From Colwellia sp. Arc7-635 (GTDB lineage: Bacteria > Pseudomonadota > Gammaproteobacteria > Enterobacterales > Alteromonadaceae), in the NCBI RefSeq assembly GCF_003971255.1, contig NZ_CP034660.1, positions 3,906,001 through 3,970,000 of the forward strand: a stretch of 64,000 nt of DNA, given 5' to 3'. Both the position numbers and the translations under genes were made by a program. The notes under the pieces are model-generated. The model saw nothing but the letters and a program-made list of their open reading frames with translations. It did no database searches and had not been told where the DNA came from. Shown piece after piece: positions 18,919-57,356 of the stretch; position 1 is the stretch's first letter; every line of letters begins with the position of its first letter.

Positions 18919-18934
18919 AGCAAGCATAGTGCCA
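18919..18934 (-). promoter_or_regulatory. Sigma-54 promoter of the fliE operon
   Basis: The minus strand reads TGGCAC-TATGC-TTGC-T, a perfect match to the sigma-54 consensus at the right spacing. It lies 52 bases before the fliE ATG and just after the flrC terminator. FlrA is the expected activator, by analogy with Vibrio cholerae class II promoters. Confidence 0.88.
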
Positions 18935-22011: not shown

Positions 22012-23487
22012 TTATTGGTTATCTTTTTGTAAATTATATTTACGCATTTTTTCTACTAAAGTCGTGCGTCGCATACTTAACAGCTCAGCAGAGCGAGCAA
22101 CAACCCAGTCATTTTTATCTAGTGCTTGGTTGATTAACGACACTTCTAAATCCGCTAAATACTCTTTTAAGTTCAGCCCTTCATGAGGTAGCACATCAAC
22201 AGTTTTACCATTAACTTCTGAGATACCGGCAACACTATCTTCTTCCGCCTCATCGTCTTCATCATCAAAACCTGAAAACATGGCATTAATCGCCTCACGC
22301 TCTTGTAACTCTTCCGGATATTCAGGTTGATAATCATCGACATCTAAATGACGGTATTTTAAGGGCAATTGCCCCACATTAACGACTTGTTCGCCATACA
22401 TAATAATCATACGTTCGATTAAGTTTGATAGCTCACGTACATTACCATCCCAAGTATGCTCTTGTAGCGATTCAATCGCTTTATCCGTAAAACGTACCGA
22501 GTGGCCTTGTTCAGCAGAAAAACGTGAAATAAGTTCTTGTAGCAACAGTGGTAGATCTTCTTTTCGATCTCTCAACGCAGGTGTTTCAATAGGGAATACA
22601 TTCAGTCGATAATATAGATCTTCACGAAACTGGTTGGTTTTTATCATATCCTCTAAATGCTGATGTGTTGCTGCGACAATTCGAACATTGGCTTTTATGC
22701 TTTTAGCACCACCGACCCGCTCAAAAGTACGCTCTTGCAATACACGTAATAGCTTCACCTGCATAGGTTGAGGCATATCTCCTATTTCATCGAGAAATAG
22801 CGTTCCGCCTTCTGCCATTTCGAAACGGCCTTTACGCGTAGAAATAGCGCCAGTAAAAGCGCCCTTTTCATGACCAAATAATTCACTTTCTAATAAATCA
22901 GCAGGAATAGCACCACAGTTAACAGGTACAAAGGGTCCTTTACTTCGATCAGATAAATCATGGATGTTACGTGCGACCACTTCTTTACCCGTACCAGACT
23001 CACCTAGAATGAGAACGTTAGCAGCAGTACACGCCACTTGTTCAATTAAAAATCGAACTTGTTGCATTGGTTCACTTGTACCGACCAAAGAACGAAATAA
23101 GGCATTTGGTCCACTCACACTTCGCTTCGATGGTAAGTTATTATGATACTGATGACTATGATGAACTAACTCGGTCAGTTGCGCGTAATTAAGTGGGGTC
23201 GTTAGTTCACCAATAACATTAACATAAGCGCTGATTTGTTTTTTATCGATGATATCGTGATATATAAAAGGACAAGCAGGATGGACTTTAATAATATCTT
23301 GTAGCTTTGGTGATATTTCACCACACAAAATAATAGTAAGAATATCCTTAACAGTAACTAGCGACTTATCTATTTCATCTTCAGAGCAAACATGGAAGTG
23401 CTCACCAACAAAGGCTAAAACAGTCTCTATTTGATGTCGTCTTTCAGCGTCGTTATCAACGACTAGAATATATTTTTGCCCGTGCAT
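22012..23487 (-). CDS. flrA: FlrA (FleQ), master regulator of flagellar genes
   Basis: The sigma-54 activator at the top of the polar flagellar hierarchy; the family binds c-di-GMP and is held in check by FlhG. The N-terminal FleQ domain (1-120) is receiver-like but lacks the phosphoacceptor set. The AAA+ domain has Walker A GESGTGKE at 162-169, GAFTGA at 209-214 and FLDEIGDM. An acidic linker ([10 protein letters not shown]) precedes a Fis-type DNA-binding end ([20 protein letters not shown]). The 491-residue length is usual. It is transcribed alone, away from the plus-strand accessory operon, with an 18-base palindrome upstream. Confidence 0.96.
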
Positions 23488-23914: not shown

Positions 23915-24091
23915 ATGAGTAATTTATTAAAAGGCAATTTCACTACCAAAAAGCAAGTGGAAGCCAAAAAAGAAGATCACGAAAGTAGTTCTTTGCAAGA
24001 TGAATTCAAAAAGGCAGCCTTAAACTCTATTGGTGGCAGCATGTCATATGTGGAACGGACCGACTTAACATGGTCTGGTGATGACGAATAA
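23915..24091 (+). CDS. Unknown 58-residue protein, first gene of the accessory operon
   Basis: A short frame of 58 residues with a good GAGAGG ribosome-binding site 5 bases before its ATG. It begins MSNLLKGNFTTKKQVEAKKE, has a charged, probably helical middle (LQDEFKKAALNSIGG), and ends in an acidic, aromatic tail (ERTDLTWSGDDE). There is no signal peptide, membrane segment or cysteine. I do not recognise a family. It is followed after 32 bases by the MptE-like gene, so it is probably co-transcribed with the DUF115, radical SAM and Maf genes. It could be a substrate, chaperone or adaptor for them, but the sequence does not show which. Confidence 0.68.
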   Translation: MSNLLKGNFTTKKQVEAKKEDHESSSLQDEFKKAALNSIGGSMSYVERTDLTWSGDDE

Positions 24092-24123
24092 TTTGAACGG
24101 TGACGAGTAACTTAGGTAATACT

Positions 24124-25143
24124 ATGCAAGAAATAAATTTAAGCGCGTCTTTTAAAAAGGTTGTAGCTCAAATAACGGATATAGGTAAAGAATGGCATTC
24201 TAATACCTTGCTTATTAATGCGAAATACAATGCTCAATACGCGCTTAACAGTATAAAAGACTTACCACCCTTAGCGAAAGAAGAAAAACGACAACATGCT
24301 ATTGTGGTAAGCGCAGGTCCAAGCTTGCATAAACAAAATGTACTGAAGAAGCTTAAAGAATCTGATTACCAAGGCAGTATTGTTGCTATAGATGGTTCGC
24401 TCGTTAAATGTCTAAAAAATGGCATTATCCCTGATTATGTTCTGACCTTGGATCCTCATCCCACAAGGATGATTCGTTGGTTTGGTGACGATGACTTTGA
24501 AGAGAACACCCGCAATGACGATTATTTTAGTCGACAGGATCTCGATGTTGAGTTTAGAAATAATTCTCTGAAAGAAAATGAAGAAAATATAGCCCTAATC
24601 AATAAGTATGCGCCACAAATAAAACTTATTATTTGCTCTTCAGCACCTAAAAATGTTGTTAGCAGAGCACGAGAAGCTGGATTTCAAATGTATTGGTGGA
24701 ATCCTATTGTTGATGATCCTAAACAGGAAGACAGTTTAACTCGCGAAATTTATAAAATTAACAAATTTCCTTGTATGAACACCGGCGGCACTGTTGGTAC
24801 TGCGGCTTGGGTATTTACCAATGCCATTTTAAAAATTCCTCGTATTGCGTTAACCGGCATGGATCTAGGCTACCACCTTGATACGCCTATTGAGATGACT
24901 CAAACCTATTATGAACTTCAAGAGTTTGTAAATTCACCTGACGAACTTGATGCGCTATTTCCTCAGTTTACTTTTCCATCGACCGGAGAAGTTTTTTACA
25001 CGGATCCTACATACTTTTGGTATCGACATAACTTCCTTCAATTATTAGAACAATCGGTTGGTGATACATTCAATTGCACAGAAGCAGGCACATTATTTTC
25101 TGAAAATTTGCCATGCAAATCCCTTAACGAATACATAACTTAG
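24124..25143 (+). CDS. MptE-like (DUF115) protein, putative flagellin modification factor
   Basis: A 339-residue protein with the DUF115/6-hydroxymethylpterin-pyrophosphokinase MptE-like domain, the fold also found in Maf flagellin glycosyltransferases. The family marks are IVVSAGPSLHK at about 60-70, VAIDGSLVKCLKNGIIPDYV, and LTLDPHP at 108-113, followed by NTGGTVGTAAWVFTNAI and ALTGMDLGY. I prefer the ATG at 24124, which follows AGGTAAT, to an in-frame GTG at 24100 with no ribosome-binding site. It lacks the N- and C-terminal extensions of full Maf proteins. It probably acts on flagellin or its sugar, judged from neighbours; a pterin role is less likely here. Confidence 0.78.
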   Translation: MQEINLSASFKKVVAQITDIGKEWHSNTLLINAKYNAQYALNSIKDLPPLAKEEKRQHAIVVSAGPSLHKQNVLKKLKESDYQGSIVAIDGSLVKCLKNGIIPDYVLTLDPHPTRMIRWFGDDDFEENTRNDDYFSRQDLDVEFRNNSLKENEENIALINKYAPQIKLIICSSAPKNVVSRAREAGFQMYWWNPIVDDPKQEDSLTREIYKINKFPCMNTGGTVGTAAWVFTNAILKIPRIALTGMDLGYHLDTPIEMTQTYYELQEFVNSPDELDALFPQFTFPSTGEVFYTDPTYFWYRHNFLQLLEQSVGDTFNCTEAGTLFSENLPCKSLNEYIT

Positions 25144-25154
25144 GTATATATAAA

Positions 25155-26753
25155 ATGGCCAAAATTTTATTTATCAACCCAACCGTTCGCGAAGAAGATG
25201 TACCAAGACATATTCCATACGGCATCGCACTATTAGCGGCTATTGCTATGAAAGAAGGACACTTGGTTCAAGTCTATGACGCCAATGCTTGGCGCTTACC
25301 AATAGAAACTATCTCAGAAGTTTGTCAAGCCGATGACTGGGATGCTATATGCGTTGGCGGTTTAACCACGTCCTATAATTACATAAAAAATGCCTGTAAA
25401 TTAATTCGCCAAGCGGCGCCCAAAGCGACCATTATTGCTGGTGGTGGTTTTCTAACTAGCATGCCGCACGAAATGTTTGACTGGTTGCCTGAACTAGACG
25501 TTGGCTGTATTGGCGAATCTTTTGTTACATTTCCTGAAGTACTAAAAAATGTTGATAATAATGATGACGATTTTTCTAAAATATTGGGGGTTATTCATCG
25601 CGATGAGAGTGGGAAGTCACATTTAACCAATGTCAGACCTAATATTCATGATTTAGATGAATTGCCTTGGCCAGCATGGGAGTTATTCCCATTAGATATT
25701 TATTTTGAAAACTCTGCATCATTGTTTAGTGAAGAGTCATTCACTTCAAAACGTAGAATGGATATTAATGGTAGTTTTGGCTGTGGCTTAACCTGCAAGT
25801 ACTGTTGGCATTTAGGTACAACAGGAGATATGTTAATCGAGCCAAATGAAAATGGTGATAACGATGTTGTCTTTACTTATGGCCGTAATATTCGTTACCA
25901 CAGCGCTGACTATATTGTCAGTATGGTCAAACATCTACATGAAACTTATGATATAGACTTTGCCGCATTTATTGATGAAAACTTAATGACAATGGATGTT
26001 GCCAGTAAAGGAACGTGGTTAAAAGAGTTATGCGCAAAATGGATTGAAGCGGGATTACAACCAACTTGTCGTGCACAGGGCATTGAACATGATGAAAACT
26101 GTCGAGGTGTTCATTGGAATGGCACTAGTCATGCAGGTCTTCATCGTCCAGCAACATTAAAGTTGATGCATGAAGCCGGCTGTACCCATTTAGTCTATGG
26201 TCTCGAATCATTTGATCCTAATATATTGAAAAACTTAGGCAAAGGTTCAAATGCTAGAAAGAATTTTAATAGTATTGCTACCTGCTTAGATTCCGGCATT
26301 AAACCCATACCTAATATCATAATAGGCTTCCCAGAAGAGAGCTTCGAGAGTGTCAGAAATACCATTGAAGCATTAAAGAAGTTAGGCATTACCGCTAAAC
26401 CACATTTTGCAACGCCCTACCCTGGCTCTGAATGGTATTATCAATATAAAGATTCAATATTAGAGCAATACAGTGGTGATCTAGAGACCTACATTATGGA
26501 CTTAGGTGATGCGAGTAAAATAACGGCTGTGATTTCACATGAATTTTCAGCTTTGCAATTACTCGGTTTGCAGCAAATAGTATATTTAAAAGACCTACGA
26601 TTATTGGCGCAATCAGAGCAACATTGGGGAAAAGCACAACAATTAACGCAGCCTTTAGCTCAACCAAAAGTTACCTTTAATTTGAAACCACTAAGAGAAG
26701 CGGGCCCATTGGCAATACCAGTGATGAATATCGAGCCAGTAGCCGTAAAGTAA
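25155..26753 (+). CDS. Cobalamin-binding radical SAM enzyme, putative flagellin or glycan modification
   Basis: A 532-residue class B-type radical SAM protein. Residues about 1-135 form a Rossmann-like B12-binding domain (KILFINPT at the start, VYDAN, DAICVGGLTTSY, ATIIAGGGF). The radical SAM core begins near 200 with the iron-sulfur motif CGLTCKYC (Cys210, 214, 217), then FIDENLM, HLVYGLESFDP and IIGFPEES. Enzymes of this layout often perform methyl transfer or difficult C-H chemistry; the substrate cannot be told from sequence. It lies 11 bases after the MptE-like gene and 10 before the Maf gene, so a role in decorating flagellin, for example methylating the sugar or the protein, is the best inference. 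Confidence 0.82.
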   Translation: MAKILFINPTVREEDVPRHIPYGIALLAAIAMKEGHLVQVYDANAWRLPIETISEVCQADDWDAICVGGLTTSYNYIKNACKLIRQAAPKATIIAGGGFLTSMPHEMFDWLPELDVGCIGESFVTFPEVLKNVDNNDDDFSKILGVIHRDESGKSHLTNVRPNIHDLDELPWPAWELFPLDIYFENSASLFSEESFTSKRRMDINGSFGCGLTCKYCWHLGTTGDMLIEPNENGDNDVVFTYGRNIRYHSADYIVSMVKHLHETYDIDFAAFIDENLMTMDVASKGTWLKELCAKWIEAGLQPTCRAQGIEHDENCRGVHWNGTSHAGLHRPATLKLMHEAGCTHLVYGLESFDPNILKNLGKGSNARKNFNSIATCLDSGIKPIPNIIIGFPEESFESVRNTIEALKKLGITAKPHFATPYPGSEWYYQYKDSILEQYSGDLETYIMDLGDASKITAVISHEFSALQLLGLQQIVYLKDLRLLAQSEQHWGKAQQLTQPLAQPKVTFNLKPLREAGPLAIPVMNIEPVAVK

Positions 26754-26763
26754 TGAGTAAACT

Positions 26764-29244
26764 ATGGACGTAAACGAAAGTTTTTTAAAATCTTCATTTG
26801 ATGAAGAGTATTTATATTCGATTAATCGCAATAGCTTCAATAAAGAGCCATCAGTATCAATTTTTAAAAGGCTATACAAAGATAAATTAGAAAAAGAAAA
26901 TAGCTTTTATATTGTACTAGGTACAGATTCAGGCTTGTTGCTAAGTTATATACTACTGCAAGAAGTACCAGATGATACACGTTATCTCTTTATTGAACTG
27001 CCTCATGTTATCGAGCAACTTAAGCATAAATTTGATTTTTCAGATTTACCAGAACACATTGATATTTGTCCAATAGATGACTGGCAAGACAAAGCGGGAG
27101 ACTTTGGTATAGAGTTGTATTTGTTTAAAGACAAGTGTCAGTATATTAAGTCTTTAGCGGCAATAGATTCATACTTGCCAGCCTACAATAGCGCTATTTT
27201 GTCGTTTGAGCAGGATTTTCAAAGCTTACGTTTTTTTACGCGTGCAACCTTAGCTGTTTCGCCATTTATGGATACACAACTAAAAAACATTTGTGAAAAC
27301 AGCAATCCGGCCTATGTACTCAAAGATCAATTTAAAACAGAGACTTGTGTATTATTAGCGGGTGGGCCTTCATTAGATGAAAGTATTGATTGGCTAAAAA
27401 GCAATCAGGATAGTATTGTCATAATGGCAGTTTCCCGTATTGCAAAGAAATTACTACAAGTCGGTCTTATACCTGACATTGTCGTCTCAGTAGATCCCTT
27501 TGAAATCAGTTTCGATGTTTCAAAAGAACAGTTACTTTTCCCTGATTCAGTGCTTTTTATTCATAGTAACAACGTTACTCCTTTCTTGTTAGGACAATGG
27601 CCAGGTAAAAATGTCTTCATGGATCGCCGATATCCTTGGGATGTTGAGGACGATGAAAAGAATTTAATGTCCTGCGGTCCAACCGTTACAAATACAGCGC
27701 TGAAAGCCGCAATTGATATGGGTTTTAGTAATATCTTACTTTCTGGTGTTGATTTGTGTTTTTCAGAAAAAGGAGTCACTCATGCATCAGGCAGCAACGA
27801 GGCTAAAATTGGCCCAACGCTTGGGCAATCAGGCAAATGGGTAGAAACCTATCGTGGTAATACCGTCGAAACTTTAATTGTTTTCGAACAAGCTGCTGAA
27901 GGGCTTTCAGTCGAAGCATTAAGAGCGAAAGAACAAGAAACTGATATTTATAACCTATCAGCTAATGCGGCAAAAATTAAGCACATCACCCATATTCCAA
28001 CTTCAGCACTTAGCTTTACCAACGAGCACTGCCAATTTAAAGAAAAAGTTAATCAACTGATTCCCACGAAGCCTACTCACGCTATTGTACAAGATTATAA
28101 TGAAGTGCTATCTCAGGTTAAAAAAACACTTGCAGATATAAAGACAATTGCTCTGCTAGCAAAAGATGCCTTAAAAGCTAACAACAAGCTTTTTGAAAAT
28201 AAAGGACAAGAGACTGAGAACTTTAAGTATAAAGTTCAGATGGACAAGATTGAAAAAAAATTAAATACAAAATTTAAAAAAACAGCCAAGTTTGTCAAAA
28301 ATTTTGGTATTGATAAGTTTATTGCTTCTGCACAGACCAACTCTTCAACAGAGTGGTCTAATGATAAAGTTGAAGAAACAGGACGCTTATATTATCAAGC
28401 TTATATTGACACTTGTAACAGCTTAATCATTCATTTGGAAAGCACGAGAATAAGAATTTTAAGCCGTATTGAAGAGCAAAAACCTCATGCTAATGTTTCT
28501 ACTTTATTAGCCCAGTGGCAAAAAGATAAAATACCTGGTCGGGCAAAAAACTGGTTAAAAGCAAAACAACAGGACGTTAATCAGTATTCAGATGAAATCA
28601 AAGAAACCTTTGCTACCTTTGAGCAACAATTTAAAGACGTTATCGCAAATGAAGATACTCGCCATCTAGCGCGGACTAAAAGCGAAGCCTCTCTGCACGG
28701 TGTTAGACGAAAAATAATTACCCTTTTTCATCAAAAAAATATTGATGCTTTAAAAACCTTAGCTCAAAGCCTTAAGTTACATATGCAAACGAATAGTGAA
28801 GCCACATCACTCTATCATCTATGTTTAGCATATTTTTTTACTGCAGATAAAAGTGAAGCTTTGGCACTCGAAAATTTTGAATTATTGCCAAATGATGAAA
28901 TTTTAGAGGATGAATTACAACAGATTGCCGCTATTGCTTTTAAACTAGAAAATTATAGCTTGGCCAAAGCTTGTCTAAATCAATTATCAGTTATAGCCAA
29001 AATATACATTCCACAACATGCTAAATTGTTACTGCTGTTGGGTGAGAAAGAGGCTGCTATCGAATGTTACACAACATTTTTACAAAAACATCCTGAAGAT
29101 ACTTTTATTTGGTGTAGTTTAGGTGTGTTTAACTTTGATATTGGCGCTATAGAAGCCGCTAGATTTGCCTTTGAGAGAGTGCTAGCGACGGAGAGTGATA
29201 ATAGCCGAGCAAAGATTTATATGGAGAAAATAAGCGCTGAATAA
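26764..29244 (+). CDS. Maf-type flagellin glycosyltransferase with TPR-like tail
   Basis: An 826-residue motility-associated factor. Maf proteins of Campylobacter, Aeromonas and Magnetospirillum transfer nonulosonic acids onto flagellin. An N-terminal domain (1-180) is followed by the DUF115 core: CVLLAGGPSLDES at 195-207, IVIMAVSRIAKKLLQVGLIP, IVVSVDPFE at 239-247, MSCGPTVTNTALKAA and LLSGVDLCFSEKGVTHASGS. After a coiled region (450-640), the last 170 residues show helix pairs like TPRs (AKLLLLLGEKEAAIECYTTF, FIWCSLGVFNFDIGAIEAAR). The CMP-nonulosonic acid genes lie next door in the opposite direction. The TPR tail may recognise flagellin or chaperone; that is inference. Confidence 0.85.
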   Translation: MDVNESFLKSSFDEEYLYSINRNSFNKEPSVSIFKRLYKDKLEKENSFYIVLGTDSGLLLSYILLQEVPDDTRYLFIELPHVIEQLKHKFDFSDLPEHIDICPIDDWQDKAGDFGIELYLFKDKCQYIKSLAAIDSYLPAYNSAILSFEQDFQSLRFFTRATLAVSPFMDTQLKNICENSNPAYVLKDQFKTETCVLLAGGPSLDESIDWLKSNQDSIVIMAVSRIAKKLLQVGLIPDIVVSVDPFEISFDVSKEQLLFPDSVLFIHSNNVTPFLLGQWPGKNVFMDRRYPWDVEDDEKNLMSCGPTVTNTALKAAIDMGFSNILLSGVDLCFSEKGVTHASGSNEAKIGPTLGQSGKWVETYRGNTVETLIVFEQAAEGLSVEALRAKEQETDIYNLSANAAKIKHITHIPTSALSFTNEHCQFKEKVNQLIPTKPTHAIVQDYNEVLSQVKKTLADIKTIALLAKDALKANNKLFENKGQETENFKYKVQMDKIEKKLNTKFKKTAKFVKNFGIDKFIASAQTNSSTEWSNDKVEETGRLYYQAYIDTCNSLIIHLESTRIRILSRIEEQKPHANVSTLLAQWQKDKIPGRAKNWLKAKQQDVNQYSDEIKETFATFEQQFKDVIANEDTRHLARTKSEASLHGVRRKIITLFHQKNIDALKTLAQSLKLHMQTNSEATSLYHLCLAYFFTADKSEALALENFELLPNDEILEDELQQIAAIAFKLENYSLAKACLNQLSVIAKIYIPQHAKLLLLLGEKEAAIECYTTFLQKHPEDTFIWCSLGVFNFDIGAIEAARFAFERVLATESDNSRAKIYMEKISAE

Positions 29245-29330: not shown

Positions 29331-30062
29331 CTACCCACCTCTTCGTTCAGCAAGTAATAGCCCTGCTAATTTAAAGTCGAGAGGACTATCAATATCAATT
29401 GAGGATTCTTTTGCCATTTTATAAGCGAAAATATTTTCGTCTAAAAAGAAGCTTTTTTCCTGCAATAGTTTATCTGTTTGTGCAATGTATACCGCACCAT
29501 TAAGTCGAAAATAATCAGGTAGCGCCTGACTGCGAGGGTTATTCTTTACGAATGCAGGAAGGAAGTCCTCCATACTAGCATTTGCATCGAGCGTATTACT
29601 CCACAGTGGTGAATGATCGCATTCACAAACACTGATAACGGCATCTGCATTTTTTGCGATTAACGTCTCGATGGCACCGTCAATATCTTCCACTGTTCTT
29701 AATGGCGAGGTTGGCTGCAACCAAAGAATATAGTCGTATTTTTTTTTCACTGAATCTAAGTGTGCTAGTGCGTGTTCAATGACATCAATTGCTGTAGATT
29801 TATCGCCAGCAAAAACTTCTGGTCGCATAAATGGCACGGGGAGCCCACAATTTTCAGCTATTAGCGCAATTTCCTCGCTATCGGTACTAATTACTATATC
29901 GGTCAAATATCGACATTGCTTTGCTGCTTCGATAGTCCATTGGATTAAAGGCTTATTAAACAAAATCTTACTATTCTTCCCAGGCAGTCTTTTACTGCCG
30001 GCTCGTGCAGGTATAATCGCTAAAATACGCTTATCTAGCATGCTTTCATTGAAACTAACCAT
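29331..30062 (-). CDS. legF: CMP-nonulosonic acid synthetase (legionaminate/pseudaminate cytidylyltransferase type)
   Basis: It activates a sialic-acid-like sugar with CTP to give the CMP-sugar used by Maf transferases. The motif ILAIIPARAGSKRLPGKN is the nucleotide-binding start of the NeuA/PseF/LegF family; DIVISTDSEEIA, WLQPTSPLRTVEDIDGAI and YFRLNGAVYIA follow. I choose the ATG at 30062: it overlaps the ptmE stop by 8 bases and sits 8 bases after AGGTGG, giving 243 residues; a longer frame to 30122 has no support. With LegB, LegG, LegI and PtmE homologues upstream, legionaminic acid is the likeliest product. PseF is the main alternative. Confidence 0.85.
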   Translation of the reverse strand: MVSFNESMLDKRILAIIPARAGSKRLPGKNSKILFNKPLIQWTIEAAKQCRYLTDIVISTDSEEIALIAENCGLPVPFMRPEVFAGDKSTAIDVIEHALAHLDSVKKKYDYILWLQPTSPLRTVEDIDGAIETLIAKNADAVISVCECDHSPLWSNTLDANASMEDFLPAFVKNNPRSQALPDYFRLNGAVYIAQTDKLLQEKSFFLDENIFAYKMAKESSIDIDSPLDFKLAGLLLAERRGG

Positions 30063-31116
30063 CAAACCGTCCACCTTGCATAACATCTTTTTGTGCTTGA
30101 TAAAAATCAACCATTTTACCAATATCTAGCCAATATTCATGCACGGGAAACATTGCGACATAATGCTCATTGTTAATGGCTGTTTCAATTAAATCGGTCA
30201 TATCAACGCGTTGATTTTCATCGACAGTTTTAATCAATTTTTGGCTAACAACATAAACACCTGCATTGATAAAATATTTATGAACTGGTTTTTCAACTAA
30301 GCTAATTATTCTATTATCATTAGCTTCTACAACACCATACGGCACTTGATATTCATCTTCTCTTACACACATAGTGCAGATAGGTTGATGTTGATTGTGA
30401 TACTCTAAGAGCTGCTCAAAATCTATTTTAGTGAGCACGTCACCATTCATCATAATAATAGGTAAATCAGGCAAGTTCTTTGGCAGTAAGCCTAAGCTTC
30501 CGCCAGTGCCTAAAGGCGTATCTTCATGGACATAATGAATATCGACATTCCATTTTTCACCATCACCAAAGTGTAATCGTATTGCTTCGGGCATATAATG
30601 CGTTGAGATGTAAAACTGATGAAAACCACAGCTAATAAAATTTTCTAAAATAGTTTCAAGTATTGGCTTATCGCCCAGCTTTAATAGCGGCTTGGGGCAG
30701 TTGTCTGTCAGGGGTTTTAGCCGAGTACCAAAACCTCCGGCCATAAGGAATACGGGGTTATTATAACGTTTTGCATCCATGGCTTTTTGCAAGGTTTCTA
30801 AACCTACCACGACACCATTTTTGACAATGGGAATTGCAGTCAGTCCTTTCGAATTCATCATATTCAGCAATTTAATACGTGATGTATTTGGCGGGGCAAC
30901 TAATGGAGTTTTATGCATAACCTCTTGAATTTCCGAGTTCATGCTTAAGTGTTTAATCAGGGCTCGTCTAATGTCACCATCAGTAACTACGCCAAGTAAT
31001 TGGCAGTTACTATCGACAACCAAAGCTAACTTTAGCGCGCCTTTATCAATAACAGAAATCGTTTCTTCCATTGATGTATCAGGCGATACAAGAATCTCTT
31101 GCCATTTATGCCCCAT
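30055..31116 (-). CDS. ptmE: CBS-domain sugar-phosphate nucleotidyltransferase (PtmE-like)
   Basis: A two-part protein. Residues about 8-118 form a CBS pair (LALVVDSNCQLLGVVTDGDI, TAIPIVKNGVVVGLETL). Residues 120-353 form a nucleotidyltransferase with the signature FLMAGGFGTRLKPLTDNCPK, IMMNGDVLTKIDF and LVEKP. This layout matches PtmE of Campylobacter jejuni, which makes the GDP-amino sugar that feeds legionaminic acid synthesis. The CBS pair may sense nucleotides. Its stop codon overlaps the legF start, and a 115-base gap separates it from legI. The exact sugar and nucleotide cannot be read from sequence. Confidence 0.82.
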   Translation of the reverse strand: MGHKWQEILVSPDTSMEETISVIDKGALKLALVVDSNCQLLGVVTDGDIRRALIKHLSMNSEIQEVMHKTPLVAPPNTSRIKLLNMMNSKGLTAIPIVKNGVVVGLETLQKAMDAKRYNNPVFLMAGGFGTRLKPLTDNCPKPLLKLGDKPILETILENFISCGFHQFYISTHYMPEAIRLHFGDGEKWNVDIHYVHEDTPLGTGGSLGLLPKNLPDLPIIMMNGDVLTKIDFEQLLEYHNQHQPICTMCVREDEYQVPYGVVEANDNRIISLVEKPVHKYFINAGVYVVSQKLIKTVDENQRVDMTDLIETAINNEHYVAMFPVHEYWLDIGKMVDFYQAQKDVMQGGRFDG

Positions 31117-31231
31117 ACTTTACTCCCCGATATTTAGCGTGTTACCACTATAATAATGATTAAATAAGTGTTTAATTATAAAAATGTAAATTTTAATAAA
31201 AGTAATACAAGTATTACGCCAACACAGCCGA

Positions 31232-32317
31232 TTAAGGCGTGATTAAATCACCATTTTGATAGTTTTTATTTGCTTTACTGCCAAGCATATCAAAGTAATT
31301 AACCGGTGAAATCCCATTACCAGGTCTTAATACGGTTAAATTATCAGCCGTATAACACTCTCCTTTGACTATCGGTTTAAGGGCAACAATGCTTTTACGA
31401 GCAACAGAGATATTTTTATGTTCGCTTAGACTTGGTATTTTCTCTTTGTTACCAAGAGCTAGTTCTACCTGTCTGATATTTTTTACCATTTGTTTTAATT
31501 CTTCTGGCTCGATAGATGCTTTATGATCGGGTCCAGGCATATTTCGATTAAGTGTAAAATGCTTTTCAATGATCACAGCGCCATTAGCCACAGCAATAAT
31601 AGGGATTAAAATACCTTCTGTATGATCAGAGTAACCGACAGGTAAACCAAATCTCTCTTTCATTAACTCCATTGCTTTCAGGTTAATTTCTTCAATAGGT
31701 GCGGGGTACTCAGTGGTACAATGTAGTAGAGAAACATGCTGAGCGAGTAATTTCTTTCCCTCAATAGAGTGATAAGCGTTTATAAACGCAGATAAGCTTG
31801 GTTTATTCTTTCTTTCTGCAGCATTTAAAAAGCCAAAAGCAACGACACCCAATGCTTGCTCTATATCAGCTAATGTCGCCATGCCGGTTGAAATAATAAG
31901 GCGCTTTCCGGCATAAGCATGCTCAAGCAACAATGGTGTATTTGTTAGCTCACCAGAGGGTACCTTTAATACTTGTAAATCTATTTCACTCACTAAAAAC
32001 TGTAAACTTTCGTCATCAAATGCCGTTGATAAATATTCAATGCCCTTGTGTTGGCAATAATCACGAACTAACAAATGTTGCTCAAAGCTCAGTTCAAGTT
32101 TTTTTAGCATAGAATATTGTGATTCAACTTTATTAGTATTGATACTTTGATAGCACGCCTGCTTGGCCTGCTGTGTAACAAGCTTTTCGGCTTTAAAGGT
32201 CTGAAATTTAATGATATCAACCTTGGCATCAACCGCCGCATCAACTAATTGGTAAGCAATATCCAATTGTCCGTTATGATTAACACCTGCCTCTGCAATA
32301 ATTAATGTTGAATGCAC
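31232..32317 (-). CDS. legI: Legionaminic/N-acetylneuraminic acid synthase (NeuB family)
   Basis: It condenses phosphoenolpyruvate with a six-carbon amino sugar to make a nine-carbon nonulosonic acid. The 361-residue protein begins LIIAEAGVNHNGQLDIAYQL, continues with IIKFQTFKAEKLVT, LKVPSGELTNTPLL, ISTGMATLADIEQAL and HCTTEYPAP, then GYSDHTEGI and IIEKHFTLNRNMPGPDHKAS, all NeuB-family motifs. The C-terminal SAF (antifreeze-like) domain (SIVALKPIVKGECYTADNLT, LRPGNGISP) is complete. It lies 31 bases after legG. Choice of legionaminic over sialic acid rests on the neighbours. Confidence 0.87.
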   Translation of the reverse strand: MHSTLIIAEAGVNHNGQLDIAYQLVDAAVDAKVDIIKFQTFKAEKLVTQQAKQACYQSINTNKVESQYSMLKKLELSFEQHLLVRDYCQHKGIEYLSTAFDDESLQFLVSEIDLQVLKVPSGELTNTPLLLEHAYAGKRLIISTGMATLADIEQALGVVAFGFLNAAERKNKPSLSAFINAYHSIEGKKLLAQHVSLLHCTTEYPAPIEEINLKAMELMKERFGLPVGYSDHTEGILIPIIAVANGAVIIEKHFTLNRNMPGPDHKASIEPEELKQMVKNIRQVELALGNKEKIPSLSEHKNISVARKSIVALKPIVKGECYTADNLTVLRPGNGISPVNYFDMLGSKANKNYQNGDLITP

Positions 32318-32348
32318 AATTACCTCTTTTGCTTGAATAGCATTTAGC

Positions 32349-33512
32349 TTATTTCGATGGGAGATTAAAAAAAGTTTTTTGAATTAAACCATCTAATTCA
32401 AGCGTTTTAAGTATCTTATATATCGCTTGTGATGCATCACCATTCCCGTAAGGGTTTTCCATTAATAGGATGCTTTTTTTAAAGTCTGGGGAAATGGCTT
32501 TACGAATGCCTGCAGTAATGTCATCAATACCATCACCGCAATGAATCACACTTTCACTGGCTATTCGTCCTTTTTGACGATCTCCAATGTTAACTGTTGG
32601 CACATTAAGTGATGGCGCTTCAATAATACCGCTGGAAGTATTCCCGACAACAGCCTCAGCGTGCTTCATAGCTGAAAGGTAGCGTAACGCGCCCAAATTT
32701 TTTACTAATAAAATTTGCTCTTGATGTTGTTCAGCATAAATTTTTAAATGCTCAATAATCTCATATCCAAAACTATCGGCGTTAGGATATGTAATAATAA
32801 CTTGAAAGCTAGTAAAGCACTCCATTGCCAATAGTAAATTTTTCAGCCCCTCAATAGCGCCATTTCTTGACAAAGTCACAGGGTGGTATGTTACTAAGAA
32901 ATAAGGTTTAGTTAATTTACCGGAAAAATGATTATTGAGTTCATCACGACTTAATAATTTTATTTTTTTTATACTATCAAGGCCAGGTGCACCGACATTA
33001 AAAACGTGCTTCGGGGATTCACCAAGTTGAATGACTCTTTTTCGATAAGGCTCTGTTGCGGTAAAATGTATATGCGACAACTTGGTAATTGCATGTCTTA
33101 TCGCATCATCATATGCCCCTTCAGTAATTTCACCACCATGTATATGAACAATAGGGACTTGATTAATCATAGCGGCCTGAGCAACACCTAACGCTTCATA
33201 TCTGTCGCCTAACAACACAATGGCATCAGGAGAATGCTTGACGATCGCATCAGCGGTCGTACTAATCGCTAAGGCTAATGATCTACTGACTGCATTTAAT
33301 GTGTCTGAAGGCACAAGAAAATCGAGCTGTTGTGTCACCGAAAAGCCATCAGCAATAATTTGATCAATGGTATGACCAAATTCATGAGATAGATGCGTGC
33401 CACCAACAAAAAGTTGTAGATTAATATTCTCATCTTGCTGTAAAAACTTTAACAGCCAATACAATAAACTATATTCAGCACGCGTACCGGTGAACACCGC
33501 TATATTCTTCAT
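32349..33512 (-). CDS. legG: Hydrolysing NDP-sugar 2-epimerase (NeuC/LegG family)
   Basis: It removes the nucleotide and inverts C2 of an activated amino sugar to give the free sugar used by LegI. The 387-residue protein starts NIAVFTGTRAEYSLLYWLLK, then IVLLGDRYEALGVAQAA, PIVHIHGGEITEGAYDDAIR, YHPVT and GNTSSGIIEAPSLNVPTVNI, the standard NeuC/WecB-like motifs. In the legionaminic route the substrate is a GDP-linked 2,4-diacetamido sugar; in the sialic route it is UDP-GlcNAc. The presence of LegB and PtmE homologues favours the former. It is 23 bases after legB. Confidence 0.86.
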   Translation of the reverse strand: MKNIAVFTGTRAEYSLLYWLLKFLQQDENINLQLFVGGTHLSHEFGHTIDQIIADGFSVTQQLDFLVPSDTLNAVSRSLALAISTTADAIVKHSPDAIVLLGDRYEALGVAQAAMINQVPIVHIHGGEITEGAYDDAIRHAITKLSHIHFTATEPYRKRVIQLGESPKHVFNVGAPGLDSIKKIKLLSRDELNNHFSGKLTKPYFLVTYHPVTLSRNGAIEGLKNLLLAMECFTSFQVIITYPNADSFGYEIIEHLKIYAEQHQEQILLVKNLGALRYLSAMKHAEAVVGNTSSGIIEAPSLNVPTVNIGDRQKGRIASESVIHCGDGIDDITAGIRKAISPDFKKSILLMENPYGNGDASQAIYKILKTLELDGLIQKTFFNLPSK

Positions 33513-33535
33513 TTTACTGTGCCTTAAGTAATAAT

Positions 33536-34522
33536 TTAGACATTATAAATGTTATGTTTGTATTGACTTAAATTCTCAGGTTTAGTGAACCAATTAACCG
33601 TCTCAATTAACCCTTGTTTAATTGAAAATTCAGGCTTAAATCCCGTTAATGCCATCATTTTTTTATTATCACACCAAAGTCTAAATACTTCTGATTTTTC
33701 AGGACGAATTCTTTGCTCGTCTGTGACAAACTCAACATCACTTTGCATGATATCTTTAATTAAATTTAAGGTATCAGCCATACTAATTTCGAAGTTTGAA
33801 CCGACATTAACAACTTCACCAATCGTTTTTTCACTTTCTGCTACTGCTAAAAATCCTCGGCAAGTATCTGTAACATAATTAAAATCACGAGTAGGCGACA
33901 GATCACCTAATTTAATTTTCTGCTCGCCGTTTGCAATCTGACTAATAATGGTTGGAATAATAGCTCGGGCAGACTGTCGTGGACCATAGGTGTTAAACGG
34001 TCGAACAATACTCAATGGTAAATTAAACGCGTTATAAAAACTCATGGCCATGGCATCAGCACCTATTTTAGATGCACTATAAGGTGACTGGGCTTGTAAG
34101 GGATGTTTTTCATCAATGGGGACATACTGCGCGGTGCCATACACTTCACTTGTTGAAGTATGAATGAAGCGGCTGACGTTATTATCCAATGCGGACTGAC
34201 ATAGGTTCAATGTGCCTGTGACATTAGTTTCGACGTAACTTTGCGGAGCACTATAGGAATAAGGTATTGCTATTAAAGCAGCTAAATGAAATACCACATC
34301 GATATCTCGTGTGATTTTTTGGCAAAAATGTGGGTCTCTAATATCACCACTGATAATATTTAAATTTTCGTGATTAGGAATACTTTCTAACCAACCCCAA
34401 AAATTAAAAGAATTATATTGTGCTAAAGCCGTTACTTGAAAATCATTAGCTAACAATAACTCAACAAGATGCGAGCCAATAAAACCATCTGCACCAGTAA
34501 CTAATACACGCTTTTTCAGCAT
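33536..34522 (-). CDS. legB: NAD-dependent sugar 4,6-dehydratase (LegB family)
   Basis: A short-chain dehydrogenase/reductase that would make a 4-keto-6-deoxy sugar nucleotide in the first committed step to legionaminic acid. The Rossmann motif VTGADGFIGSHL is at about 8-19, and the catalytic Tyr-Lys is in SPYSASKIGADA. The SFNFWGWLE stretch near residue 42 is, as I recall it, characteristic of LegB proteins. The length is 328 residues. It is the first sugar gene, 62 bases after the FliT-like gene and in the same direction, so it may be read from the fliD-fliS transcript. Confidence 0.85.
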   Translation of the reverse strand: MLKKRVLVTGADGFIGSHLVELLLANDFQVTALAQYNSFNFWGWLESIPNHENLNIISGDIRDPHFCQKITRDIDVVFHLAALIAIPYSYSAPQSYVETNVTGTLNLCQSALDNNVSRFIHTSTSEVYGTAQYVPIDEKHPLQAQSPYSASKIGADAMAMSFYNAFNLPLSIVRPFNTYGPRQSARAIIPTIISQIANGEQKIKLGDLSPTRDFNYVTDTCRGFLAVAESEKTIGEVVNVGSNFEISMADTLNLIKDIMQSDVEFVTDEQRIRPEKSEVFRLWCDNKKMMALTGFKPEFSIKQGLIETVNWFTKPENLSQYKHNIYNV

Positions 34523-37315: not shown

Positions 37316-38131
37316 TTATAGTAGTGATAGTGCAATTTGTGGTTGTTGATTTGCTTGCGCTAACATTGAGCTTGAAGCCTGCTGTAATACAGTACTACGT
37401 GCTAGTGCCGCACTTTCTGCTGCATAATCTGTATCTTCGATACGTGAACGTGATGCAGAAAGGTTTTGTGATGTATTTTCGTTACTACGCACAACAGACG
37501 CAAAACGGTTTTGTTTAGCACCTAAATCGGCACGAGTACTGTTAATTGATGCTAAAGCAGTATCTATTTTACCTAACGCTCTTGACGCCATACTAGTTGC
37601 TGAAATACCAATCGTTGAAAGTACAGAACCGGCAGCAAAGTTTTTACCAATACTTACTTCAATACGTTGGCCTGCATCAGCACCTACTTGGAAAAACTTA
37701 CTTGTGTAGCTACCATCTAAAAGATTTTCACCCGCAAAACCTGTATCTGTAGATATACGAGTTAACTCAAGCTCTAGCTCTGAAAACTCTGAATCCAGTG
37801 CCGTGCGATCGGCGTTACTGTTTGAACCATTCAATGATTGTACAGACAGTGTACGCATACGTTGTAGTGTGTTTGTATACTCATCCAAAGCACCCTCAGC
37901 CGTTTGCGCTAATGAAATACCATCATTTGCGTTACGTGATGCTTGGTTCAAACCGTTTATTTGTGACGTTAAACGACTTGAGATTTGCAAACCAGCAGCA
38001 TCATCTTTAGCGCTATTAATACGTTTACCTGAAGACAGACGTTCAAAGTTTGTTCCTAAGCTATCAGTCGAAGAAGCTAACTGACGCTGTGAATTCAATG
38101 ATGCGATATTACTATTTACGACTAAAGCCAT
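37316..38131 (-). CDS. Flagellin, second copy (sigma-28 type promoter)
   Basis: The filament subunit. The 271 residues have conserved N- and C-terminal D0/D1 helices ([37 protein letters not shown]) and only a short central part, so no D3 domain is present. It differs from the upstream copy at scattered positions, for example [10 protein letters not shown] against NDLQTNFER, and lacks the final Gln. A strong sigma-28 promoter lies 86-112 bases upstream and a terminator lies after it. Several Ser/Thr in the central region are candidate glycan sites. Confidence 0.95.
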
Positions 38132-38440: not shown

Positions 38441-39259
38441 TTACTGCAATAATGATAAGGCAATTTGTGGTTGTTGATTTGCCTGCGCTAGCATAGAGCT
38501 TGATGCTTGTTGTAGTACAGTACTTCTGGCTAAATCGGCACTTTCTGCTGCGTAATCGGTATCTTCGATACGTGAACGAGATGCTGATAAGTTCTGCGCT
38601 GTATTGTCATTACTACGAATAACAGAAGCAAAACGGTTTTGTTTTGCACCTAAGTCAGCACGTGTACTAGTAACTAAAGCAAGAGCACTATCAATTTTAA
38701 CTAATGCTCGCGAAGCTTGGCTTGCGGCAGAGATACCAACGGTAGAAATAACGGATGCCGCTGCAAAGTTACGACCAATGCTTACTTCAATTTTTTGTCC
38801 AGCATCAGCACCTACTTGGAAGAACTTAGATGTGTAAGTACCATTAAGTAGTTTTTCACCTGCAAAGCCTGTATCTGTTGAGATACGAGTTAATTCTGTT
38901 TCTAGTTCAGAGAATTCAGCATCAAGTGCCTTTCTGTCCGCGTCACTGTTTGAGCCGTTTAGTGATTGTACTGACAAAGTTCTCATACGTTGCAATGAAT
39001 TGGTATATTCATCTAACGCCCCTTCTGCCGTTTGCGACAATGAAATACCATCATTGGCGTTACGAGCAGCCTGATTTAGGCCGTTAATTTGTGCAGTCAA
39101 ACGACTTGATATTTGCAAACCAGCAGCATCATCTTTCGCACTGTTAATACGTTTACCAGAAGATAAACGCTCAAAGTTAGTTTGCAAATCGTTGGTAGAT
39201 CCACCCAAATTACGTTGCGCATTTAAAGATGCGATATTACTATTTACGACTAAAGCCAT
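38441..39259 (-). CDS. Flagellin, first copy (sigma-54 type promoter)
   Basis: The filament subunit of 272 residues, ending ALSLLQ. It has the same compact D0/D1 plan as its neighbour and is identical over long stretches ([35 protein letters not shown]). The two genes are a tandem duplicate pair. Upstream lies a sigma-54 element, while the other copy has a sigma-28 element. This matches Vibrio cholerae, where FlaA alone is sigma-54/FlrC-dependent and essential for the filament, so this copy may form the hook-proximal part. Confidence 0.95.
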   Translation of the reverse strand: MALVVNSNIASLNAQRNLGGSTNDLQTNFERLSSGKRINSAKDDAAGLQISSRLTAQINGLNQAARNANDGISLSQTAEGALDEYTNSLQRMRTLSVQSLNGSNSDADRKALDAEFSELETELTRISTDTGFAGEKLLNGTYTSKFFQVGADAGQKIEVSIGRNFAAASVISTVGISAASQASRALVKIDSALALVTSTRADLGAKQNRFASVIRSNDNTAQNLSASRSRIEDTDYAAESADLARSTVLQQASSSMLAQANQQPQIALSLLQ

Positions 39260-57280: not shown

Positions 57281-57356
57281 GTCCTCATAGTTTAACTGGA
57301 TAAAACTGCGGCCTCCTAAGCTGCTGCTCCAGGTTCGAGTCCTGGTGGGGACGCCA
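57281..57356 (+). tRNA. tRNA-Arg, anticodon CCU
   Basis: A full cloverleaf. The acceptor GTCCTCA pairs with TGGGGAC (one G-T pair), with encoded CCA at the end. The anticodon stem GCGGC/GCTGC carries the loop CTCCTAA, with anticodon CCT at 57315-57317, which reads AGG (arginine). The T-arm CCAGG-TTCGAGT-CCTGG is perfect. It stands alone on the plus strand, between the flagellar locus and metabolic genes. Confidence 0.95.

Follow-up and report, generated by a model that had tools for sequence, protein, structure and literature searches.

What does a four-gene operon do when it runs on the opposite strand to the flagellar locus around it, and is flagellin its substrate? The operon lies on the plus strand of a 64,000-nucleotide stretch of Colwellia sp. 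Arc7-635 (contig NZ_CP034660.1, positions 3,906,001 to 3,970,000; hereafter the window) and encodes, in order, a 58-residue small protein (SP), a short stand-alone Maf core (short Maf), a B12-binding radical SAM enzyme (rSAM), and a large Maf protein (large MAF). The original prediction, made from the letters of this DNA alone, treated the four genes as one system that could install an unusual modification on flagellin or its sugar. We found that the conserved unit comprises three of the four genes, SP, short Maf, and rSAM, which recur in distant bacteria beside genes for nonulosonic acids (NulOs), and we tentatively propose that they act as a module for NulO tailoring with a small peptide at its center.

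All four open reading frames (ORFs) are present in the window (23915-29244), specifying 58, 339 or 347, 532, and 826 residues. The tight spacing originally described, with gaps of 32, 11, and 10 bases, is valid when gene 2 starts at ATG 24124, and the opposite-strand setting was likewise confirmed, the flanking regulator and cytidylyltransferase both being encoded on the minus strand (Table 1). An alternative start of gene 2, GTG 24100, lies 8 bases past SP and yields the 347-residue product; ATG 24124 was preferred, having an AGG upstream and a Met at the equivalent position in three relatives (L007, L008, and L021; L numbers denote loci). The gene 2 frame is readable from farther upstream in L021 as well, just as it is in the window.

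SP had no Pfam or NCBIfam match at an E value of 0.01. Compared with its nearest relative, in L021, 15 of 58 codons differed synonymously and there were 3 non-synonymous differences (dN 0.038, dS 0.94), hence, judged by this codon comparison, SP behaves like a real gene. Homologs were identified in 56 of 57 loci, 55 through BLAST and that of L044 by reading and translating the DNA. Four residues, G7, G40, G41, and S42, were invariant across the 56 sequences. Position 42 was Ser in 56/56 rows of the SP alignment (A1), no other Ser or Thr was conserved, and the last alignment columns were variable. The AlphaFold2 model was mostly unstructured (predicted local distance difference test score of 63), with a helix at residues 27 to 39, placing Ser42 in a GGS segment between this helix and a VxKKKVxW-type stretch. 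Ser42 would be the candidate site of NulO attachment.

The 57 loci derive from an rSAM-seeded scan of one genome per species, which returned 59 loci including two fragments at contig ends (L064 and L065) that were excluded. L020 and L044 were omitted from alignment A1, L020 from alignment A2, and L015, in which the rSAM frame is split in the bin, from alignment A3. A short Maf homolog was located directly upstream of rSAM in 56 of the 57 loci, and SP directly upstream of short Maf in 56; the L020 piece begins 64 bases before rSAM, with no room for either gene. A few loci have an extra frame or a NeuA-type gene between the members (e.g., L062, and L032 at about 1.2 kb ahead of rSAM). A search seeded with SP around Paramagnetospirillum recovered it in 16 of 317 genomes, with short Maf near it in all 16 and rSAM in reach in 15, the piece of the sixteenth (L086) stopping before it; as the first set had contained 13 of these genomes, only three are independent. 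The original expectation of linkage across genomes was therefore borne out for SP, short Maf, and rSAM, found together in 56/57 loci, and failed for large MAF, found in only 11.

This three-gene cassette is rare. Within the order, the rSAM gene was carried by 1 of 295 genomes, that of the window itself, and within the genus by 4 of 17, while SP and rSAM were each detected in 1 of 398 genomes of the phylum, again the window's own. rSAM had no plasmid match at 1e-30, and none of the 66 stretches of viral contigs that fit a pattern was a relative. The compact module spans distant phyla. A tree of 57 rSAM rows, built by a quick method, included Pseudomonadota, Elusimicrobiota, Myxococcota, Bdellovibrionota, Chloroflexota, and Omnitrophota. 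Gammaproteobacteria occurred in both main clades, in keeping with transfer between lineages, of which the tree alone is no proof; many of its rows are metagenome bins.

The genomic context of the cassette points to NulO metabolism. Homologs of NeuA, NeuB, NeuC, PtmE, or LegB were found in 53 of the 57 loci, the four loci without any being pieces of 5.9, 7.4, 13.7, and 18.3 kb. Among the 32 loci that span 19 kb or more, NeuB occurred in 27, and at least one of NeuB, NeuC, or PtmE in 30. A NeuA-type gene was positioned on the cassette strand no more than 250 bases away in 33/57 loci. Recurrent neighbors also included a LegC-type aminotransferase (26 loci), NeuD (23 loci), and the WbuX, HisH, and HisF amidation set (22, 23, and 21 loci, respectively). 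These labels are BLAST best hits under loose limits, hence the NeuA-type calls (49/57) may include other cytidylyltransferases and the HisH/HisF-type calls histidine genes; L007, L010, and L021 were excluded from neighbor clustering. Formyltransferase and deacetylase homologs were encoded in 7 and 8 of the 57 loci, respectively. In a Thalassotalea locus (L010:13769-15354), formyltransferase-like and PIG-L-like genes lie between NeuC and NeuB, a hint of an N-formyl NulO.

In the window, the minus-strand genes from 29331 to 34522 constitute a large part of a NulO pathway, a point absent from the original prediction, with the LegB, NeuC/LegG, and NeuB/LegI models of the cytidine monophosphate (CMP)-legionaminic acid pathway all scoring above cut-off. 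No LegC was found above cut-off in this genome (best 228.2 bits against 420), and the best-scoring gene, which belongs to a separate cluster, passes the PseC cut-off instead. Hence, the sugar may differ from standard legionaminic acid; its usual 7-amino group may be missing or be added by another aminotransferase. LegB without LegC in reach was a feature of all five Colwelliaceae cassette loci of the scan (L007-L010 and L021) and of L045. The separate cluster is of the pseudaminic-acid type (G000:C1:3868000-3873000; L070), with PseB, PseC, PseF, and PseG above cut-off, and adjoins WecA/WecB-type genes about 35 kb from the window; with this cluster besides the NulO genes of the window, two distinct NulOs are probably produced by the cell.

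The rSAM product has the architecture of B12-dependent radical SAM enzymes, with an N-terminal B12-binding domain (PF02310, 52.7 bits), a radical SAM domain (PF04055, 51.9 bits), both above cut-off, and a CxxxCxxC motif retained in 57/57 rows; DxHxxG was present within the first 160 residues in 0/57. Its relatives in the PDB include AprD4 (6fd2, E value 4.8e-6) and TokK (7kdx, E value 4.5e-4), and no NCBIfam functional model scored above cut-off, the best being HpnJ (97.8 of 577.6 bits). Methylation is the most frequent reaction of B12 radical SAM enzymes according to the available portion of PMC11659888, and C-methylation would be the most likely reaction of rSAM, other radical reactions being possible. 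Second, distant radical SAM proteins (23 to 27% identical) are encoded in some of the same sugar islands (L042:17687-19075, L030:11641-13059, and L052:17017-18666).

Short Maf matched PF01973 (78 bits) and its model has the Maf-core fold, residues 28 to 347 aligning to residues 238 to 511 of the 632-residue 5mu5 chain; the model also has the MptE/HPPK fold. Full Mafs are described as three-domain proteins in the part of PMC11339370 available, an architecture that the 347-residue short Maf lacks. Its DP and GG motifs are 111 residues apart, compared with 60 in large MAF, and R126, W127, D140, Y142, R145, and Q146 are invariant within this stretch; the invariant polar residues are D118, R126, D140, R145, Q146, D255, D302, and N325. 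Short Maf may be a CMP-NulO-dependent transferase with the conserved Ser of SP as its acceptor.

These observations can be united in a pathway that would start with the production of a CMP-activated NulO by the adjoining genes. Short Maf, which amounts to a sialyltransferase-like core and lacks the additional domains that full Mafs have, would move the NulO onto Ser42 in the flexible GGS segment of SP. rSAM would then recognize SP and perform a radical modification, most likely C-methylation, of the peptide-bound sugar. The modified NulO would finally enter surface glycans and, in the genome of the window, be transferred onto flagellin by large MAF. Release before this last step might occur by return to CMP through a reversible transferase, which is a guess, or through another transferase; no release enzyme was prominent among the 40 commonest neighbor families. 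Transfer of the sugar to SP by short Maf, with rSAM acting on the product, is the simplest reading that uses all three proteins plus their context. Gene linkage, conservation, predicted folds, and the NulO context are shown by the data, whereas every chemical step, attachment to Ser42, and release are inferred; we place the tailoring module as a whole somewhat short of an even chance. The narrower idea that SP is a true sugar carrier, loaded at Ser42, holding the NulO while rSAM rebuilds it, and returning it to glycan assembly, is doubtful. The step of rSAM in the module has a direct precedent in pearlin biosynthesis, where the B12 radical SAM enzyme TmoD works on a substrate carried by a peptide, as stated in the portion of PMC9303977 available.

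The role of flagellin bears directly on the original model, in which all four genes modify flagellin, with short Maf serving as an additional flagellin transferase and with flagellin or its sugar as the substrate of rSAM. The operon does sit within a flagellar glycosylation locus, and, of 17 genomes of the genus, the 4 that have rSAM are also the 4 that have a MAF of the type found in the window (E value 1e-20), hence flagellin is a plausible final target in this genus. Large MAF (PF01973, 146.5 bits, with the Maf domain at residues 171 to 335 and TPR matches under cut-off) was, however, limited to 11 of the 12 loci with flagellar genes in reach and found in 0 of the 45 others. A flagellin match at an E value of 0.001 was detected in 39 of 50 carrier genomes (38 above cut-off), the search covering the genomes of 50 of the 57 loci, several of them incomplete. 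The 11 without a match comprised three Elusimicrobia, an Anaerolineales, three Pelagibacteraceae, and four others, several again incomplete. The Pelagibacteraceae are single-cell genomes (L056, L057, and L059) with the full cassette in NulO/sugar islands. Elsewhere in the genus, G308 (L097) encodes LegB, NeuC, NeuB, and a PtmE-type match, truncated where the piece ends, beside its flagellins, together with a divergent MAF (25% identity over 209 residues to that of the window), and its genome had no rSAM match. In G296 and G302, about 0.9 kb separates FliS from the regulator and none of the genes just listed for G308 occurred within the 20 kb examined. Given the few loci with MAF, the carriers without a flagellin match, and the NulO locus of G308 without rSAM, the cassette is more aptly regarded as accessory to NulO biosynthesis, flagellar or not. 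A joint action of the four genes as one flagellin system, which would also leave SP unexplained, was not supported and is unlikely.

In an alternative reading, SP would hold short Maf and rSAM together as a scaffold, without covalent attachment, with rSAM modifying a free, CMP-bound, or glycan-borne NulO and short Maf transferring the sugar to a glycan or to a protein other than SP. The two conserved motifs of SP, LKGNF and helix-GGS-W, which are separate from each other, and its mostly unstructured model fit a linear-motif adaptor, and the cassette tracks NulO genes regardless of their destination. A lone invariant Ser, with no other invariant residue offering a functional side chain, nevertheless exceeds the needs of an adaptor, and no alternative acceptor protein was prominent among the 40 commonest neighbor families; we regard the scaffold as possible, if on the unlikely side. 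SP could also be read as the precursor of a ribosomally synthesized and post-translationally modified peptide (RiPP), the part after GG being modified by rSAM and NulO-glycosylated by short Maf to give a small glycopeptide or peptide cofactor. Double-glycine leaders have a helix ending in GG, as does this small peptide, and the RiPP-type pairing of a small peptide gene with a modifying enzyme recurs with SP and rSAM in 56/57 loci. B12 radical SAM enzymes are frequent in RiPP clusters according to the accessible text of PMC4632189, and rSAM gave weak scores, far under cut-off, with the RiPP models ApyD (88.6 bits) and rSAM_ocin_1 (77 bits). Against this, none of the three cassette proteins had a Pfam domain for peptidase activity, export, or precursor recognition, an ABC transporter homolog was present in 10/57 loci (the one scanned had no peptidase domain), and the would-be core shows conservation from phylum to phylum and not diversification, making a RiPP-like product improbable. 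Surface-sugar islands gather mobile genes, and the cassette might be an unrelated three-gene system, for example of cofactor or lipid chemistry, that merely resides there, as the four loci without a NulO gene in the available DNA would allow. The proportion of long loci with NeuB, NeuC, or PtmE, the proximity of NeuA-type genes, and a Maf core compatible with CMP-NulO chemistry render such hitchhiking very improbable.

Table 1. Genes and sites of the operon and its surroundings in the window.
Feature	Position	Strand	Evidence and assignment
SP, 58-residue small protein	23915..24091	+	Motif LKGNF ... helix ... GGS(I/M)x(F/Y)V ... W; proposed NulO acceptor/carrier peptide
SP Ser42 codon	24038..24040	+	Sole conserved Ser/Thr; putative attachment site
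Short Maf, stand-alone Maf catalytic core	24124..25143 (alternative GTG 24100)	+	PF01973; proposed CMP-NulO:SP transferase
rSAM, B12-binding radical SAM enzyme	25155..26753	+	PF02310 + PF04055, CxxxCxxC
Large MAF, 826 residues	26764..29244	+	PF01973; proposed flagellin NulO transferase; operon member outside the conserved cassette
FlrA/FleQ-type regulator, left neighbor	22012-23487	-	PF00158 + PF06490
NeuA/PseF-type CMP-NulO synthetase (cytidylyltransferase), right neighbor	29331..30122	-	PF02348; PseF model 158.5 bits, under cut-off 205.7
CBS + sugar-1-phosphate nucleotidyltransferase, presumably PtmE-like	30055..31116	-	PF00571 + PF00483
NulO synthase, NeuB/LegI type	31232..32317	-	TIGR03569 475.8 bits, cut-off 399.65
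Hydrolyzing 2-epimerase, NeuC/LegG type	32349..33512	-	TIGR03568 457.8 bits, cut-off 235.9
LegB, 4,6-dehydratase	33536..34522	-	TIGR04180 516.7 bits, cut-off 475
Two flagellin genes	37316-38131 and 38441-39259	-	Align with flagellin positions of relatives; presumed end target of large MAF

Past LegB lie genes that we take, from their N-terminal sequences and without a family-library scan, to encode FliS, FliD, FlaG, and the two flagellins. Pattern searches of the window found no sigma-28-type site, and the exact sigma-54-type matches, at 18919 and 47094, were not upstream of the operon; the total for the sigma-54-type pattern was near chance (50 versus a mean of 37.9), and sigma-70-like and terminator-like sites occurred at chance frequency. 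The sole tRNA gene found in the window was tRNA-Arg (CCT), at 57281-57356.

Several known systems resemble parts of the cassette. The Maf/PseD/PseE flagellin NulO transferases (PF01973; 5mu5) have the same central domain and fold as short Maf, and the GPSL, DP, and GG-V motifs are common to short Maf and large MAF. Unlike full Mafs, short Maf (339/347 residues) has no separate N- and C-terminal domains and a longer DP-GG spacing, and it also occurs in genomes without a flagellin match. The module would assign a role outside flagella to the stand-alone Maf/DUF115 core. The CMP-legionaminic acid pathway adjoins the cassette through LegB, NeuC, and NeuB, differing in the LegC missing above cut-off. 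In Shewanella oneidensis, sfmABCDE, the relative found with experimental study behind it, is likewise a NeuB-containing accessory operon near a Maf gene, but its products, as given in the text of PMC3765264 available (NeuB-like, thiamine pyrophosphate enzyme, acyl carrier protein-reductase-like, methyltransferase, and ATP-grasp), are unlike those of the cassette, and the term "radical SAM" is absent from that text. The word "radical" was likewise absent from the accessible parts of two papers on legionaminic acid and NulO gene clusters (PMC7439481 and PMC7371886). In the open-licence literature, we found nothing that joins radical SAM with nonulosonic acid, legionaminic acid, or NulO flagellin, and nothing on Colwellia flagellin glycosylation. 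Broader searches named no such system among the matches listed, and DUF115 with radical SAM surfaced only in a gut-family survey, as far as the text of these sources was available. The original view that the set matches no described modification system was thus supported within these searches, and the set can now be tied to a sialic-acid-like sugar.

The closest parallels in logic come from peptide-based biosynthesis, as far as it is covered in the available portion of PMC9303977. In the pearlin pathway (TmoA and TmoD), a small carrier peptide is paired with a B12 radical SAM enzyme whose substrate is peptide-bound, as proposed here. There, a PEARL ligase loads a tRNA-derived amino acid at the peptide C terminus and a protease releases the product, whereas the proposal for the window cassette involves a Maf core, a Ser inside the peptide, and a sugar. 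Pfam and NCBIfam detected no PEARL ligase domain in the three cassette proteins (the neighbors were not searched for it by name), and the nonconserved C terminus of SP speaks against pearlin-type C-terminal loading. Amino-group carrier proteins (LysW and Vzb22) also hold a metabolite during tailoring on a small protein, with a C-terminal Glu and a globular domain; SP lacks a conserved C-terminal Glu, its C terminus being variable and its model mostly unstructured. The parts of the cassette are known families, and their combination with a tiny conserved protein matches no described system that we found. The recurrence of this trio of peptide, sialyltransferase-like core, and B12 enzyme in distant bacteria beside sialic-acid-like sugar genes suggests an undescribed way of modifying NulO-like sugars or of attaching them to a small peptide. 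If the proposed module operates, carrier-protein logic would be applied to a sugar, giving C-branched or otherwise radical-modified sialic-acid-like sugars on flagella and other bacterial surfaces, those of marine SAR11 cells included, and the use of carrier peptides would extend from amino acids to sugars.

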